A stretch of DNA of 21,504 bases. Origin: a virus. A model generated the notes under the pieces. It was not told the origin of the DNA. It did not search any database and was given only the letters and a program-made list of their open reading frames with translations. This document shows positions 4,478-21,504 of this stretch, one piece after another. Every line of letters starts with the position of its first letter. The stretch's first letter is position 1. The stretch lies in IMG/VR virus record IMGVR_UViG_3300006224_000042, positions 1 through 21,504 of that record; one strand, written 5' to 3'. The position numbers and the translations under genes are program-made.

Positions 4478-6645
4478 CAGCGCCTCGGTTCCACGTCGTA
4501 GCCGAACATCAGTTCTTCTATATCGAACACCGCTGTCTGCCCGCTGGGGACCGTCTGCTCGAACCGGAACTGGATGTAATCTATACCGCTTGCCCCACCC
4601 ACATCGAGCCGTTCACGATAAACTCCGGTGTCGGGCCACGGCCCGATAACGTCCCGATGAATCTCGGCTCCGTTCCCGTAGGTATAGACGGTGATGCCGG
4701 TCTCGGAGACCGTCCCTCCGCGCTGCCTGACCTTATACATCAGGTGGCGAGGGGTTATCTTCGTGCCAGGACCTACGGGCCACATTTCAGGGGTCCACAC
4801 CTTATAGGTGGTGCTGAGGGTATCAAAGTCCTTCTGAAGAGATGACCCAGGGATATTGCGGTAGCTCAGCAATGTCCCTGTGGTCCCGTTCCTCGGAGCC
4901 ATCAACTGCGTGTAGTCGTAGTTGTAGAGGACCGCAGGAGCTTCGGCGGTATTGTCATGCTTCTCTTGGTACCAGACGCCCGTGCTGAGGTCGAGGGACC
5001 AGACGGTACCCGTACCAGCATCCACGATGCTGACCACATCGTTGATGAAACTCATGCTTGCCCAGGTCGTGATAGCATAAGTATCACTTACGGGACGGGA
5101 AATGAGTGTCACTTCTCCGCTCGAATCTGCCATCCATATGTGCTTATTTCCGGCGCATATAACCCCATATGGTGTCGGCATCAGAGAACGCCCCGGAGCG
5201 ATACCCCCTGTGGGGAGCCTCGTCAGGGAAAACGTGTCTGGTCCTGACCCTGAGAGGTACCACAGTGAGGTCTTCTTCCCGATGAAGAGCGCGTTGCGGA
5301 ACGGGACTATCTCCTCGATGGGTTCACCATCGTCCCGTCCGATGTCGATGTAATCGTTCGCTCCCCAAGTGGTCTCGTCGTTGATGTTGGAGTAGTAAAG
5401 TCTATAGAAGTTGACAACCGTACCACCGACGAAGACCCTATTCTTATGGACCGCCACGCATCTACCCGCAGGACCGTTCGTGATTGATTCTGATGCTCCT
5501 GAGGTGGGGTTATATGCTCGTAAGGTAGCGAACCTATGGTTCGTATAGAATGTACGGTTGAAGCCAGTGGCGAAAGCCACAGGGTCACTCACCACAGCGG
5601 TCGCTGGGGTCACAGTGTCTATCAGTGACCACGCTCCTGTGGTAAGGTCAGCAGCTCCCTTGAAGTAAACCTTGTAGTCGCTGCTCTCTGCGTTCGCCAC
5701 GAGGTAGTTGATATCAAAGGTGGTTGCTGTTTTCGCTTTCGGCTGGATGACCAAAGAACGGCTGTTCCAGGCTACGCTAGAACTGCTTGCATCTGTATCA
5801 GCGACCGTATCCGGTGGGTCTACGTCGGCATCTGTAAGTCTATAAGACGCATAAGCCGCCAGGTCTGTGTCGGTGCTTTCACCAAACCCGTTCGTGTGCC
5901 AGTCAGCGTCGGTGATTTCTTGCCATGGGAAAGAATGACGGGTGGTGAAACTCAACCCGTAGTTTCCTGACGAGCTGGTAGCTGCTGTCGCTAGAGACAT
6001 CACTACGGAGGGGTCATAAGTCACGGTGTTGTTCACATAGGTTACGGTCACGGGGTCAGGAGCAGCGGCAGTATCGGTCTCAGCAGTGATACTTTGGATA
6101 TCACTGCCACCCGACCACTCCATGAGGATAAGAGGTATCGGGGCAGACGTGGCTCCCCATGTGAACGTTTCCGTCCCGCTTCGAGGAGCAGCGTTGGTAA
6201 TCTTGAACACAAAGAAAGCATCGGTCGTGGCAGGAGTCCCGAGGACTGTCCATCCTGTGGATGAAGGAGTAGGGCTGAGGGTCCACTCACCGACGTTGAA
6301 AAGCAATGCTATCAGAAGACTTCCGTTGGTCGTGGTCTGAGGCCATGTGAGAGCAACGCTGGTGCCGTTAGGCATATTAGGAACACTGGTTCTGACGACC
6401 TGCAATAAGGTAGGAGTCTCGTACCCTGCCTGACGTGCTGAGTACCCTATACCGCGCCCTACCTTCGTAGAAGGGGCGCTGGTCGCACTCGGCTTCAACC
6501 AACCCACACGGGGTTTCAGGGAGCCAGAGGCATCGGGTACCCAGTTCTCTAGTTTCGCCATGAACCCAGGGGGCATCATCGAATCTTCGATATGCCCAAG
6601 GAGACCCTTTTCTGCGGTTATCGGTAGTGAGCGGTATTCACTCAT
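4477..6645 (-). CDS. Tail nozzle / beta-propeller connector protein, 722 aa
   Basis: This is probably the tail-tube tip (nozzle) protein of a short-tailed phage. Residues 1-60 carry the typical opening: a Gly-Leu segment, then ENWVPDASGSLKPRVGW, where a virion protein lists its solution-facing strands. Residues about 380-520 match the propeller repeats of these proteins: GPAGRCVAVHKNRVFVGG, YRLYYSNINDETTWGANDYI, EEIVPFRNALFIGKKTSLWY and YGVICAGNKHIWMADSSGEV. Residues about 80-303 are an extra beta domain that shares its pattern with the fibre gene (GSLLIALLF, GWTVLG, then FTWG). The start at ATG 6645 overlaps the previous stop (ATGA). The adaptor gene lies just upstream, as expected for the portal-adaptor-nozzle stack. 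Family assignment is by remembered motif, not by search. Confidence 0.8.
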   Translation of the reverse strand: MSEYRSLPITAEKGLLGHIEDSMMPPGFMAKLENWVPDASGSLKPRVGWLKPSATSAPSTKVGRGIGYSARQAGYETPTLLQVVRTSVPNMPNGTSVALTWPQTTTNGSLLIALLFNVGEWTLSPTPSSTGWTVLGTPATTDAFFVFKITNAAPRSGTETFTWGATSAPIPLILMEWSGGSDIQSITAETDTAAAPDPVTVTYVNNTVTYDPSVVMSLATAATSSSGNYGLSFTTRHSFPWQEITDADWHTNGFGESTDTDLAAYASYRLTDADVDPPDTVADTDASSSSVAWNSRSLVIQPKAKTATTFDINYLVANAESSDYKVYFKGAADLTTGAWSLIDTVTPATAVVSDPVAFATGFNRTFYTNHRFATLRAYNPTSGASESITNGPAGRCVAVHKNRVFVGGTVVNFYRLYYSNINDETTWGANDYIDIGRDDGEPIEEIVPFRNALFIGKKTSLWYLSGSGPDTFSLTRLPTGGIAPGRSLMPTPYGVICAGNKHIWMADSSGEVTLISRPVSDTYAITTWASMSFINDVVSIVDAGTGTVWSLDLSTGVWYQEKHDNTAEAPAVLYNYDYTQLMAPRNGTTGTLLSYRNIPGSSLQKDFDTLSTTYKVWTPEMWPVGPGTKITPRHLMYKVRQRGGTVSETGITVYTYGNGAEIHRDVIGPWPDTGVYRERLDVGGASGIDYIQFRFEQTVPSGQTAVFDIEELMFGYDVEPRR

Positions 6646-13422: not shown

Positions 13423-13442
13423 GGGGGGGCTTTCGCCCCCCC
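13423..13442 (-). promoter_or_regulatory. Intercistronic G-C hairpin with GAAA loop, after the capsid gene
   Basis: On the minus strand the two 8-bp arms are GGGGGGGC and GCCCCCCC, closed by a GAAA tetraloop. The stem begins about 12 bases after the capsid stop and ends just before the ribosome site of the 12980-13402 gene. No U-run follows, so it is not a classic terminator. It could protect the 3' end of a processed capsid message or lower downstream expression. Confidence 0.7.
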
Positions 13443-17995: not shown

Positions 17996-19741
17996 TTATC
18001 CAGTCATCTCGTCGGCAGGCTCATACAGCGTAGGGGAGTCACCTTGCCACCCGTGACGGTGCTCACGCGCCATCTGGTTAGCGATAGCGAGGGCTATCAC
18101 CCGGTCATCGTGGCACCCTTCCTCCGCCATAGGCTTTCCGTTCTCCCAAATCACGAACGTTACCATCTCTCGGACGATATCCTTGGAGGGTATCTCAATC
18201 TGTCCGAGTCTCACCTTATGCCCTAGCTCATCGAGCATCGGCATCCGGGTCTCTACGGTGGTTTTCCACCCGAGGGTTCGGCTGGTCCTGCGTGTGAGCT
18301 TATTCATCTCTCGGTGCCAATACAGCCGTGGGTACCTGTAATGCTCCCTCAGGAGCCTCAGGACCGTCTGCCCCGAGCTGTGGGACCTCTCTACCCCGAT
18401 GAGGGCCACGGAGCGAGCCGCGCCTTCGCCGCAGGAGTACCAGTTCCCCAGGAGTCTCAGTTGCTCTGCGAACACTTCAGGAGCTACGCGCCCGTGAAGC
18501 TCAGCGACCACTTGGTCCGTGTCCACCCTATAGACCACGGCGGAGGAGTAGTCCCGTCCGCCCCGCTCTTGGGTGCTTGAGTTCCCACCCATGCGTTCCG
18601 CAACCAACTTACCTTCTGCGGTATCAGCCCCGATGACGTAATGCCCTTCGTCATCAGGGTTCTCGAACACCCGCAGGAACCCGCGTGGGTTGGGTCTATA
18701 CACCACGAGCCTGTCGTTCAGGCCCAACATCCCTCGGGTCTTCGCTTCTCCTGAGGTTCTGGTCATCAGGCGTATCTGGTCCTCATCGAAGAAACAGGCA
18801 CCGCTGACGAGGAACGCTTCCTCTGCGGTAGCAGGGTATTCCTGCTGGAAGTTCCGTACCGCGTCCCTGCCGAGTCTCTGTCTATCCCCACCGAACCGCT
18901 CCACGATGACGGCTCGCCGCCACGCGAGCTTGTCTAGACTCAGCGTGTGGAACTCGCCCTCGTAATATATACCCTCGGTGAGAGCCTGCTTCTCGAAATC
19001 GTCCGGGTCGTTCAGGATGAGGTCGCGGGTCTCATCGTCAGGGACCATCTCGTACTCTGAGTGAATCCACCACGGGAGGAAGATGGCGAGCCAGTTAGAC
19101 TCACCGTTCACTGCGGACTCCCACATCTCGTGGAACAATCCGCCTGCTCCCTTGGCGGTGGACTCTATGATTATCTCAGAGTTGCTCTGCGGGACCGCCT
19201 GCATCAGCGATATCCAGGCTTCGTACCCTGTGGTCCCCCAGTACGCTAACTCAGAAGCATGGAGCAGGTGGATGGTCTGCGCTCGCCCTGCCTCTGTGTC
19301 ACTCGCTGGCCTTACGGAGATATCCGAATCGTGGACGAAACTGAGGTGCTTCCGCCTCCCCACAGCTTTGCGGGTAGGGGCTAGTTCGGGTGGCAGATGG
19401 TCGTAATATCGAGCATATATATCGTATAGGACCCCTGCTCGTTCGAGACTGTCAGCAACGACCATGGCAGACGTAGCGGGCCACAGATGTAGTCTCCGAA
19501 GGAACCTGGCTGCCACATAGGTACTGACGCCTTCCTGTCGGGCTTTGAGGACGATAGCTCTGACACGCCCTGTTTCCTTCCGCTGCTGGGATATCTTCTC
19601 GTGGACTATCTTCTGCGCCTCGTTGAACTCAAGGTAGTTCAGCGTGGCGTCCTTCTTACGAATCTGAAGACAGACTTTGCAGTATAGCTCAAGGTCTCTG
19701 CGGAAATCTCTGATGAGGTCGTTAGTCGCTTTCTTGGTCAT
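17996..19741 (-). CDS. terL: Terminase large subunit (packaging ATPase-nuclease), 581 aa
   Basis: The motor that pumps DNA into the head and cuts it. The ATPase domain has a P-loop-like KARQEGVSTYVAA (about 66-78), a Walker-B region IHLLHASELAYWG (157-169, with the His-x-Ser-Glu form seen in some terminases) and the coupling motif EIIIESTAKGAGG (189-201). The nuclease domain has YVIGADTAEGK (368-378, first metal Asp at 373), ALIGVERSHSSGQT (446-459, Glu 451) and a C-terminal CHDDRVIALAIA (543-554, final Asp residues). All expected acidic residues are present, so the enzyme looks active. The start at ATG 19741 overlaps the small terminase gene by 20 bases, with GGAGA about ten bases upstream. 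The portal gene follows after three bases. Confidence 0.95.
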   Translation of the reverse strand: MTKKATNDLIRDFRRDLELYCKVCLQIRKKDATLNYLEFNEAQKIVHEKISQQRKETGRVRAIVLKARQEGVSTYVAARFLRRLHLWPATSAMVVADSLERAGVLYDIYARYYDHLPPELAPTRKAVGRRKHLSFVHDSDISVRPASDTEAGRAQTIHLLHASELAYWGTTGYEAWISLMQAVPQSNSEIIIESTAKGAGGLFHEMWESAVNGESNWLAIFLPWWIHSEYEMVPDDETRDLILNDPDDFEKQALTEGIYYEGEFHTLSLDKLAWRRAVIVERFGGDRQRLGRDAVRNFQQEYPATAEEAFLVSGACFFDEDQIRLMTRTSGEAKTRGMLGLNDRLVVYRPNPRGFLRVFENPDDEGHYVIGADTAEGKLVAERMGGNSSTQERGGRDYSSAVVYRVDTDQVVAELHGRVAPEVFAEQLRLLGNWYSCGEGAARSVALIGVERSHSSGQTVLRLLREHYRYPRLYWHREMNKLTRRTSRTLGWKTTVETRMPMLDELGHKVRLGQIEIPSKDIVREMVTFVIWENGKPMAEEGCHDDRVIALAIANQMAREHRHGWQGDSPTLYEPADEMTG

Positions 19742-20135
19742 CAGGCCCTATCTCCGCGAGTCTATCCTCGAACTTGGTGGTCCCCTGGGAAGCTCGTGGT
19801 CCTTGAGCTTTCTCGAACTCTTGGAGCCGCTTGATGACTTCACCTGCGGCCTTGAGCCGTATGCTCATCATCTTGTCAGCTTTGTCCCCGAGCAGAGCCG
19901 CCTCGTAGACCTTGAGGGCGTGAGGCAGGAGGAGGGCTAGACCTTTCTCCGCTATCTTGGCCTGGGACTTACCTTCCTGTTCCAGAGCCGCAGCGAACTC
20001 CGGGTCTTCCGCTTTCCAGCGAGCCACAGTGACCCTGTGGACCCCTGCCGCTTTCCCCGCCTCTTCCTGGGTACCACCCTCTGCGAGCACCTTGAGAGCG
20101 ATAGCTTTGGCGTTGGTGTCTGCTGGTTTACCCAT
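19722..20135 (-). CDS. terS: Terminase small subunit, 137 aa
   Basis: Residues about 13-45 form a helix-turn-helix: KVLAEGGTQEEAGKAAGVHR followed by VTVARWKAEDPEF, typical of the DNA-recognition domain of small terminases. The next part is a helical oligomerisation region (SQAKIAEKGLALLLPHALKV), then KMMSIRLKAAGEVIKRLQEF. The last 30 residues are polar and would contact the large subunit. It overlaps the preceding gene by eight bases and the large terminase gene by 20. Small terminases recognise the packaging start (pac or cos), which often lies in or near this gene. I could not identify that site. Confidence 0.8.
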   Translation of the reverse strand: MGKPADTNAKAIALKVLAEGGTQEEAGKAAGVHRVTVARWKAEDPEFAAALEQEGKSQAKIAEKGLALLLPHALKVYEAALLGDKADKMMSIRLKAAGEVIKRLQEFEKAQGPRASQGTTKFEDRLAEIGPDDQESD

Positions 20136-20394
20136 GTAGTTCTTCGGGGTTGACGACGTACTCAGGACCAGACATCAGGTACTTCATATCCTTGCCCTTG
20201 GTCTCTTCCAGGTACCGTTCCTCGGAGTCCTCACCGAACTGGTCTCGGATGGCCTCGGAGTCGTAGTAGTTCTTCAACTCTCTAGACTCGAAGCCGGAGT
20301 AACTGACCTGGAAGCCCTTGGCACGCGCAGCGAAGCTGAGCCCACAGTTGCAGGCCCAGCTTCCTCTGTTACAGGTTGTGCAGTATGTAGCCAC
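20128..20394 (-). CDS. Zinc-knuckle small protein, 88 aa
   Basis: The start is GTG 20394, sharing one base with the upstream TAG stop; the next possible ATG is far inside. The N-terminus carries C5-x2-C8-x6-C15-x-C17 (YCTTCNRGSWACNCG), a compact zinc-binding cluster. The rest is acidic and helical (ESRELKNYYDSEAIRDQFGE). No classical ribosome site lies close to this GTG; the only good one, AAGGAG, is about 20 bases away. A consensus promoter ends just before it, so the message may be leaderless here or translated by coupling. The function is unknown; it may regulate transcription or help packaging. Confidence 0.55.
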   Translation of the reverse strand: MATYCTTCNRGSWACNCGLSFAARAKGFQVSYSGFESRELKNYYDSEAIRDQFGEDSEERYLEETKGKDMKYLMSGPEYVVNPEELHG

Positions 20395-20612
20395 TAAGTA
20401 GGAAGTATACCATACTCCTTAGGCTTTGTCAAGCCTTTACGGTGGAATAGATAGTATCCTGCTCCAAGGACCAAGAAGCTTACAGGGATGAAGCTCCCTG
20501 TGTACCAGAGCCACATCACGAACAAAGACATCAGTATGCCTGTCCAGAGTACCGCGAAGGCGATGAGAGGAGCTACACAAACGCTGGCGATAACCAATCC
20601 GATTCGTTCCAT
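20394..20612 (-). CDS. Small membrane protein, holin-like candidate, 72 aa
   Basis: I place the start at ATG 20612, giving MERIGLVIASVCVAPLIAFA; a GTG 12 bases upstream lies inside the hairpin and lacks a ribosome site. The protein has two or three membrane segments (about residues 4-22, 24-38 and 41-56), separated by very short loops such as YTGSF. It ends with a basic-polar tail (FHRKGLTKPKEYGILPT). Small multi-span proteins near terminase genes are sometimes holins. I see no endolysin next to it, so the role is open. Its ribosome site is inside a hairpin (20619-20638), suggesting controlled or low translation. Promoter P2 lies within its 3' half. Confidence 0.5.
   Translation of the reverse strand: MERIGLVIASVCVAPLIAFAVLWTGILMSLFVMWLWYTGSFIPVSFLVLGAGYYLFHRKGLTKPKEYGILPT
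20404..20432 (-). promoter_or_regulatory. Promoter P2 (sigma70 consensus) inside the small membrane gene
   Basis: On the minus strand: TTGACA (20432-20427), a 17-base spacer, then TATACT (20409-20404). The predicted RNA start is near 20397, about three bases before the GTG of the zinc-knuckle gene. The -35 box lies within a 6-bp inverted repeat AGGCTT/AAGCCT (20421-20436), which could be a repressor operator. Confidence 0.7.
20421..20436. promoter_or_regulatory. Inverted repeat over the -35 of P2, candidate operator
   Basis: AGGCTT (20421-20426) and AAGCCT (20431-20436) are separated by TGTC. The arms are 6 bp and perfect, and they surround and overlap the -35 hexamer. A protein bound here would block P2. 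Confidence 0.5.
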
Positions 20613-20618
20613 GCCGAA

Positions 20619-20638
20619 GCCCACCTTTTCAGGTGGGC
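20619..20638 (-). promoter_or_regulatory. Hairpin that hides a ribosome binding site (GAAA loop)
   Basis: The minus-strand RNA has arms GCCCACCT and AGGTGGGC with a GAAA tetraloop. The 3' arm contains AGGTGG, the only ribosome-site-like sequence for ATG 20612, eight bases before that start. When folded the site is paired, so translation would need melting, a binding factor or ribosome passage. Confidence 0.65.
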
Positions 20639-20651
20639 GATGGCACGGTCT

Positions 20652-20675
20652 TAGGGTCTTGCTCCTAGGACCCTA
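20652..20675 (-). promoter_or_regulatory. 7-bp stem-loop in the operon leader
   Basis: TAGGGTC and GACCCTA pair around a 10-base loop. On the minus strand the loop reads CTAGGAGCAA, so it exposes an AGGAG. No start codon lies at proper distance, so any ribosome contact here would be non-productive. Confidence 0.5.
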
Positions 20676-20705
20676 GCGGAAGTTGGGGTTCCGTATACCT
20701 TCACC

Positions 20706-20873
20706 CTATCCACGGGTATCAGAGTAGTTGCGGTGAAGAGGAGATTCTGGTTTCCCTGAATCCTCAGGGAAGAGGAAGTCTAGGAACTGACGCGCATCCA
20801 TCACGTCACGATGGATGCGCTCTACGGTTCTCGAAAGCTCTTCAAGCGGTTCCGCTCTATGCTCGCTTTCCAT
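20706..20873 (-). CDS. Possible small acidic protein, 55 aa
   Basis: The minus strand is open from ATG 20873 to TAG at 20708-20706. The start of the product is MESEHRAEPLEELSRTVERI and the end is SPLHRNYSDTRG. It is acidic and likely helical, and the composition looks protein-like. Against it: there is no good ribosome site (only GTGGGG touching the ATG), an in-frame stop lies just upstream, and the reading frame contains two perfect hairpins (20752-20771 and 20792-20820). It could be a real leader gene or chance within a structured RNA. Confidence 0.4.
   Translation of the reverse strand: MESEHRAEPLEELSRTVERIHRDVMDARQFLDFLFPEDSGKPESPLHRNYSDTRG
20752..20771 (-). repeat. Perfect 8-bp inverted repeat in the leader
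   Basis: TTCCCTGA and TCAGGGAA with a four-base loop (ATCC on plus). It lies inside the possible 55-residue ORF. No U-run follows on either strand, so it is not a clear terminator. Confidence 0.75.
20792..20820 (-). repeat. Perfect 11-bp inverted repeat in the leader
   Basis: GCGCATCCATC and GATGGATGCGC with a seven-base loop (ACGTCAC). Eleven pairs without mismatch are hard to explain by coding alone. It sits in the possible 55-residue ORF at the residues IHRDVMDAR. Confidence 0.8.
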
Positions 20874-20905
20874 CCCCACGCTCGCAGTCTATCTATCTTC
20901 TCTTC

Positions 20906-20932
20906 GCCAAGGGTCTCCTCTAGACCCTTGGC
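20906..20932 (-). promoter_or_regulatory. Perfect 11-bp stem-loop near the 5' end of the P1 transcript
   Basis: GCCAAGGGTCT and AGACCCTTGGC with a five-base loop (CCTCT on plus, AGAGG on minus). It starts about 47 bases into the RNA predicted from P1. The minus loop holds a ribosome-site-like AGAGGAG flanked by the stem. It could protect the RNA end or bind RNA polymerase or a protein. Confidence 0.75.
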
Positions 20933-20985
20933 TCAGTTTCTCTTCACTCGGTCGCTATCCTCTTGTCGCTCCCTCGTATAAGAGC

Positions 20986-21014
20986 AGTATACAACTTCCC
21001 AGGGAGGGTGTCAA
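20986..21014 (-). promoter_or_regulatory. Promoter P1 (sigma70 consensus) of the leftward late operon
   Basis: On the minus strand: TTGACA (21014-21009), a 17-base spacer, then TATACT (20991-20986). The -35 is a perfect match and the -10 differs from TATAAT at one base. The predicted RNA start is near 20979, followed by about 365 bases of structured leader before the first solid start codon (20612). P1 has the same two hexamers and spacer length as P2. Confidence 0.75.
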
Positions 21015-21081
21015 CCTAAAGAGGAAAGAAAATCGATACACCACAACATCTGGTGGTTACAGCCCGTAGATTCTTCTCTCT

Positions 21082-21141: not shown

Positions 21142-21220
21142 CGTTTACGGAATGTAGCGCACGAGTTTTTGTAGGTACCATATATTAATAGAGGACCCGC
21201 GAACTCCTGTTTGTCCAATC

Positions 21221-21424: not shown

Positions 21425-21504
21425 ATGGCATGGGAAACCACGTTCACAGCGGATTTCGGAAGCATCGCGGTGGTGGCGGGCCACAACGGCGGGCAGCGTA
21501 GCGT
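21425..21504 (+). CDS. Rightward gene, first 26 codons (runs off right edge)
   Basis: ATG 21425 is preceded by AGAGGAGG with an eight-base spacing, among the strongest ribosome sites in the window. The frame is open to the edge: MAWETTFTADFGSIAVVAGH and a few more residues (NGGQRS). Too little is present to name a function. It is the only gene reading rightward, so the 410-base gap to its left is a divergent control region. GC of the visible codons is higher than in the late genes. Confidence 0.6.
   Translation, partial: MAWETTFTADFGSIAVVAGHNGGQRS

Follow-up and report, generated by a model that had tools for sequence, protein, structure and literature searches.

A likely conserved leader RNA with a fixed-loop hairpin and duplicated stem-loops ahead of a phage virion operon

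Background

Only a few known RNA elements influence the transcription or stability of an entire phage operon. In phage lambda, the nut site (boxA, then boxB) provides a leader hairpin near the phage promoter, with a purine-rich loop. The put RNA of phage HK022 (putL, putR) suppresses termination by way of the zinc-binding domain of RNA polymerase beta'. Its putL site lies just downstream of the promoter and has adjacent stem-loops with non-canonical G.A pairs (PMC9378689). The dual hairpins of the ANTAR family have stems of ~3 bp and hexaloops with A1 and G4, and stand ahead of a terminator (PMC3369931). In the T4 genes e, soc, 49 and I-TevI a hairpin buries the Shine-Dalgarno (SD) sequence and the AUG, and in the gene 43 operators of T4 and RB69 the loop and hairpin top are identical between the phages while the remainder varies (PMC3014915). 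In staphylococcal phages, a structured RNA, cabRNA, derives from the terminase region (PMC10686824).

The window considered here, that is, the whole stretch of DNA analysed, is a 21.5-kb IMG/VR virus record with a virion operon on its minus strand. In an earlier note on this DNA, a leader with five perfect stem-loops was placed ahead of the operon, and roles in terminator read-through, packaging or translational control were considered. The leader is compared below with its counterpart in a diverged relative and with the systems just described. It is likely a real, conserved and previously undescribed phage leader RNA.

Results

The searches returned a contig that is nearly identical, L002, and a single diverged relative, L003 (a 46,780-bp contig), and the portal, capsid and 88-aa proteins had these same two contigs as their only close relatives. 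At the sensitivity used, no close relative was found in phage, plasmid and species-genome collections. Terminase relatives at ~33% identity were also considered, and the upstream regions of the two that were read (L013 and L014) are unrelated. The main features of the window are as follows.

21040-21057, minus strand: inverted repeat ACCAC-N8-GTGGT upstream of P1, kept in L003 at ~5012-5029
20986-21014, minus strand: promoter P1, TTGACA-17-TATACT, 11/12 match to sigma-70
20404-20432, minus strand: promoter P2, TTGACA-17-TATACT with TG, just before the 88-aa gene
20128-20394, minus strand: 88-aa protein with a C-x2-C-x6-C-x-C motif, 67% identical in L003 and the first gene past the leader to be conserved
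19722-20135, minus strand: small terminase (PHROG match, E 1.7e-8), 75% identical in L003
17996-19741, minus strand: large terminase (PHROG match, E 2e-16), about 87% identical in L003
17992-16118, minus strand: portal, SU10/P22-type
14696-13455, minus strand: capsid, SU10-type

The operon is preceded by a region of ~1 kb, bounded by an opposite-strand gene with a start near 21431 and a relative in L003. The 88-aa protein has no family match in Pfam, PHROGs or NCBIfam, and its AlphaFold prediction is uninformative (pLDDT 42). After the capsid gene, both phages have a strong GC hairpin of different sequence (window 13423-13442, minus strand; L003 12250-12276; ~-24 kcal/mol each). It has no U tract and is possibly a 3' protector of the mRNA.

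The equivalent of P1 in L003 is a 12/12 match and the sole TTGACA-N16-18-TATAMT match in the 46.8-kb contig, and that of P2 is a 10/12 match plus TG with the same geometry. A single promoter driving ~20 kb, as supposed in the earlier note, is contradicted by this second promoter: P1 need not drive the whole 20 kb, because P2 sits before the 88-aa gene. By its position, P2 can bypass the leader in both phages. Its predicted start lies ~5 nt upstream of the 88-aa start codon in each (window 20404-20394; L003 ~5343-5353), which would give a nearly leaderless mRNA.

Two further conserved elements are seen upstream of P1. The more distal one, TATATGGTACCT-(A/T)-C ... GCGCTACA-(A/T)-TC, lies at ~21150-21187 in the window (minus strand) and ~4896-4931 in L003. 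Its TACA(A/T)T could be the -10 of a further promoter that has no matching -35, and the RNA that follows it folds well (z -2.6 in the window and -4.6 in L003). The inverted repeat ACCAC-N8-GTGGT is placed between this element and P1 and is a possible regulator site.

A scan of the whole window for perfect stems, with a lower limit of 8 bp, recovered four of the five proposed stems (20906-20932 and 20792-20820, 11 bp each; 20752-20771 and 20619-20638, 8 bp each), and the fifth, below this limit, was read directly from the sequence, so that all five stand at their proposed positions. No perfect stem in the 21.5 kb is longer than the two of 11 bp, and Markov shuffles yielded none above 10 bp. The high degree of structure is also confirmed by folding. 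The 374-nt leader (20979-20606) has a predicted energy of -153 kcal/mol, as compared with -116 ± 5.6 for its shuffles (z -6.6), and none of the 100 shuffles folds as well. Its first 122 nt alone give z -5.3, and the L003 leader gives z -5.7 as a whole and z -7.8 for its first 145 nt. No leader stem combines a GC-rich stem with a U tract on the minus strand, as an intrinsic terminator or attenuator would; with no sense-strand U tract after them, the leader hairpins are not intrinsic terminators.

The order in L003 is P1, E1, two hairpins, E2, P2 and the 88-aa gene, where E1 and E2 are the stem-loops described below; the window has one hairpin in place of the two. E1, the first hairpin and E2 are the parts common to both. 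The distance from E2 to P2 is ~430 nt in the window versus ~40 nt in L003, and the extra segment of the window holds a possible 55-codon ORF, the other four stems and a 72-aa membrane ORF, all missing in L003. Since the relative has no such later segment, the comparison is limited to roughly the first 120 nt of the window leader. These comprise the following elements.

20946-20977, minus strand: stem-loop E1, ACGAGG-GAGCG-ACAAGAGGAU-AGCGA-CCGAGU, at the predicted transcript start (alone, z -3.2)
20906-20932, minus strand: hairpin HP, 11 bp, with loop AGAGG inside UAGAGGA (z -6.5)
20889-20905, minus strand: purine-rich linker GAAGAGAAGAUAGAUAG, of which GGCGAAGAGAAGA, the 3' flank at the foot of HP, is identical in L003
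20860-20886, minus strand: stem-loop E2, UGC-GAGCG-UGGGGAUGGAA-AGCGA-GCA, which includes the AUG of the 55-codon ORF

E1 and E2 are absent from the earlier list of stems; their stems are rich in G.A and do not form perfect Watson-Crick repeats. Pairing in the two phages was compared by hand, and an automatic alignment did not register the stems. In the counterpart of HP (L003 5198-5228) the upper stem and loop (AGGGUCUAGAGGAGACCCU) are unchanged, and the lower stem differs yet remains fully paired (GCCA/UGGC in the window, GCCUUC/GAAGGC in L003). The perfect pairs number 11 in the window and 13 in L003, and by reading, arms exchanged between the phages would lose the lower pairs. E1 starts 1-2 nt from the predicted transcript start in both phages, and its L003 counterpart alone has z -3.5. 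The E2 core differs from that of L003 by one base, and its outer stem is altered with pairing retained; taken alone, E2 is no more stable than its shuffles (z -0.5).

E1 and E2 have a common core, GAGCG-N10-12-AGCGA, closed by different stems. The E arms form 2, 3, 4 and 5 consecutive pairs with their own partners and 0-1 when swapped between the phages, while the two L003 copies pair with each other's arms equally well. Tandem G.A pairs are predicted to fill the internal loops of E1 and E2, and RNAfold independently draws 2x2 internal loops such as these pairs would fill. In the MFE folds, the purine linkers pair over long range with downstream pyrimidine tracts, but differently in the window and in L003.

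Among the 1.6 Mb searched on both strands, two E elements within 250 nt of each other occur in these leaders only, and a composition-trained model gives such a close pair a probability of 4.5e-4 per 150 nt. Among 46 IMG/VR hits to the loop and linker, the hairpin is found in these two lineages only (11 and 14 pairs, including G-U), the others having at most 4. Two 22-nt matches to the E2 core were judged to be due to chance: one (L031 101-122) falls in primase-like codons for SERGDGKR, and the other (L033 6250-6271) is antisense to a pilus-type gene of a bacterial MAG.

With respect to compensatory changes in homologues, which the earlier note had called for, the stem arms do differ on both sides with pairing kept; the evidence comes from one diverged relative and is thus not a formal covariation test. 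Considering the order of parts, the invariant loop and cores, the two-sided changes in the arms, the rarity of E pairs and the confinement of HP to both lineages, it is likely that the module is under selection for RNA pairing, as far as one relative compared by hand may indicate. The conservation of the E2 core could be partly translational, because it overlaps an AUG.

The segment between E2 and P2 adds the following features.

20706-20873, minus strand: possible ORF, 55 codons long if begun at ATG and 57 if begun at GTG (20879), holding the stems 20792-20820 and 20752-20771
20652-20675, minus strand: 7-bp stem UAGGGUC/GACCCUA, present in the MFE folds, with a loop resembling that of HP
20609-20648, minus strand: two-tier hairpin of 15 bp in which the SD (AAGGUGG) and AUG of the following ORF are sequestered (-29.6 kcal/mol, z -7.1)
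20394-20612, minus strand: hydrophobic ORF of 72 aa (76 aa from GTG), with two apparent membrane segments and, by eye, a resemblance to holins

The leader is not certain to be non-coding, since two of the five stems fall within the 55-codon ORF (20873-20706). This ORF has weak support from its codons (p 0.008, with one reverse frame scoring higher), its AUG has no well-spaced SD, and neither a family nor a counterpart in the L003 contig was found for it. In L003, the reading frame opened by the E2 AUG leads without a shift into the 88-aa gene (5254-5613, plus strand), and by this reading P1 transcripts of that phage could yield an N-extended 88-aa product. The codon score of the 72-aa ORF exceeds all 2000 shuffles; no family at cut-off and no match in the L003 contig were found for it, and naming it a holin would be guesswork. 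For the ORF at 20612, SD and AUG alike have a predicted unpaired probability of about 0, and the hairpin at 20609-20648 would be a separate device that keeps this ORF shut in P1 transcripts. Translational control is thus directly plausible for this one stem, over the SD and AUG of the 76-aa ORF, and is not established for the leader as a whole.

Discussion

It is highly probable that an RNA-level leader element exists as such. The leader is probably a real control RNA, because the diverged relative keeps the folded RNA with its pairing intact. The order of parts, the loop and cores, and the pairing in L003 support the proposal that the leader RNA is structured and functional, while the particular roles named for it are not established.

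The overall best explanation, to which a probability of about 0.4 is assigned, is that the P1 transcript opens with a modular leader of ~120 nt, which works in cis, is read by a protein and acts on the whole transcript. On leaving RNA polymerase, the leader would fold into E1 at the 5' end, the strong fixed-loop hairpin and E2, with the purine linkers joining them remaining open. That the loop and core bases do not vary suggests that a protein recognises them; the loop and the duplicated G.A-rich cores may be read by RNA polymerase, by a host elongation or RNA-binding factor, or by a phage protein. The bound leader would then promote elongation past pauses or Rho and/or protect the 5' end. As the leader is kept whether ~40 nt or ~430 nt lie between E2 and both P2 and the next conserved gene, an effect on the whole transcript is favoured over one on a single start codon.

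A put/nut-like effect on elongation ranks first among the mechanisms; it is the single most likely one, and even so a tentative choice with odds well below even. Beyond short matches at chance level (best E about 2), no sequence similarity to HK022 was found in support of the put role once suggested, and no need for read-through is apparent, since intrinsic terminators on both strands are not enriched (15 found versus 13.8 expected). This lack of enrichment, the P2 bypass in both phages and the shuffle-level stability of E2 alone count against the best explanation. A search of the L003 contig for a phage-encoded RNA polymerase was silent, as were its controls. That the leader represents a new class of polymerase-modifying RNA, in which duplicated tandem-G.A stem-loops around a fixed-loop hairpin replace N/Q-type proteins in a virion-gene operon, is quite doubtful.

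A translational operator and a 5' stabiliser rank next, and each is unlikely. As an operator, the leader would control translation from the E2 AUG through an RNA-binding protein that attaches to its loops and E2; this protein, from host or phage, might resemble CsrA or be encoded in the operon, as the 88-aa protein is. The in-frame AUG GAA AGC GAG of E2 is identical in both phages, and in L003 its frame runs into the 88-aa gene; the downstream product is, however, not the same in the window and L003, and the AUG lacks a well-spaced SD, which many late genes have. GGA is found in nearly all the loops, but it is commonplace in purine-rich loops, and no CsrA gene was found in the L003 contig, although the host could supply one. 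The gene 43 operators of T4 and RB69 also retain the loop and vary the rest (PMC3014915).

A stabilising role, about equally improbable, would have E1 cap the 5' end and the hairpin block ribonucleases, so that P1 mRNA lives longer. The nearness of E1 to the predicted start (1-2 nt in each phage), the strong hairpins and the short linkers are all consistent with this. Nevertheless, the invariant loop, the linker and the near-identical E2 core are left unexplained, and P2 transcripts are without the leader.

The two remaining explanations come last, and both are very unlikely. The upper HP stem is a perfect 7-bp dyad, the same in both phages, and AGGGTC is somewhat clustered in both intergenic regions, as might be expected if a repressor bound AGGGTC half-sites (AGGGTCT-N5-AGACCCT) in the DNA just downstream of P1. 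However, the clustering is weak when each dyad is counted once, the dyad is prolonged by lower arms that have changed yet stay complementary, conservation extends to the spacer and to 13 nt of flank on one side, and E1 and E2 are not inverted repeats at the DNA level. A free noncoding RNA, cut off or accumulating as an abundant species with its own target, would suit the self-contained fold and has a precedent in the cabRNA of the staphylococcal terminase region (PMC10686824), but no terminator is seen after E2 and there is no Rfam match. A packaging RNA like that of phi29, where a pRNA-dependent motor takes the place of small and large terminase subunits, is unlikely, since both subunits, of ordinary type, are encoded by the present phage.

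Comparison with known systems

In Rfam 15, no family matches the window at gathering score, and both leaders give sub-threshold matches only. The cabRNA lies inside the terS/terL coding sequence, whereas the present RNA is a leader upstream of the terminase genes. ANTAR dual hairpins are similar in their paired small stem-loops and conserved loop bases; here, in contrast, the loop sizes and sequences differ and neither U tract nor terminator follows, so that the leader falls outside the ANTAR definition.

Two T4-type controls resemble parts of the leader. The predicted sequestering of the SD and AUG of the next ORF by the hairpin at 20609-20648 is of the gene e type, but no releasing promoter of the sigma-70-like type, the type covered, was found in its 5' arm or elsewhere between P1 and 20612 on the minus strand. 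HP, in keeping its loop and upper stem between phages while the rest varies, behaves as the gene 43 operators do; these are, however, single hairpins at the start of one gene, with a known binding protein.

The lambda nut likeness consists of a hairpin near the promoter with a purine-rich loop. In the present leader the hairpins are longer, the E cores are duplicated and no N-like gene is identified. No nut boxA was seen by eye in the transcript; TGCTCTTA resembles boxA, but its place is at the promoter, ahead of the predicted start, and L003 does not have it.

HK022 put is also a phage leader RNA near a promoter with adjacent stem-loops and G.A pairs (predicted ones here). E1 and HP are adjacent near the predicted start, but in shape they do not match the published put fold. 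In contrast, put is ~70 nt long, has two specific stems and serves early operons, while here virion genes follow and a bypass promoter is present. Even as a stabiliser or an operator, the invariant loop and duplicated core would constitute a compact RNA-protein recognition module not in Rfam. Should the leader prove to act as put does, an activity with one well-studied example would gain a new sequence family, and this at a virion-gene operon.
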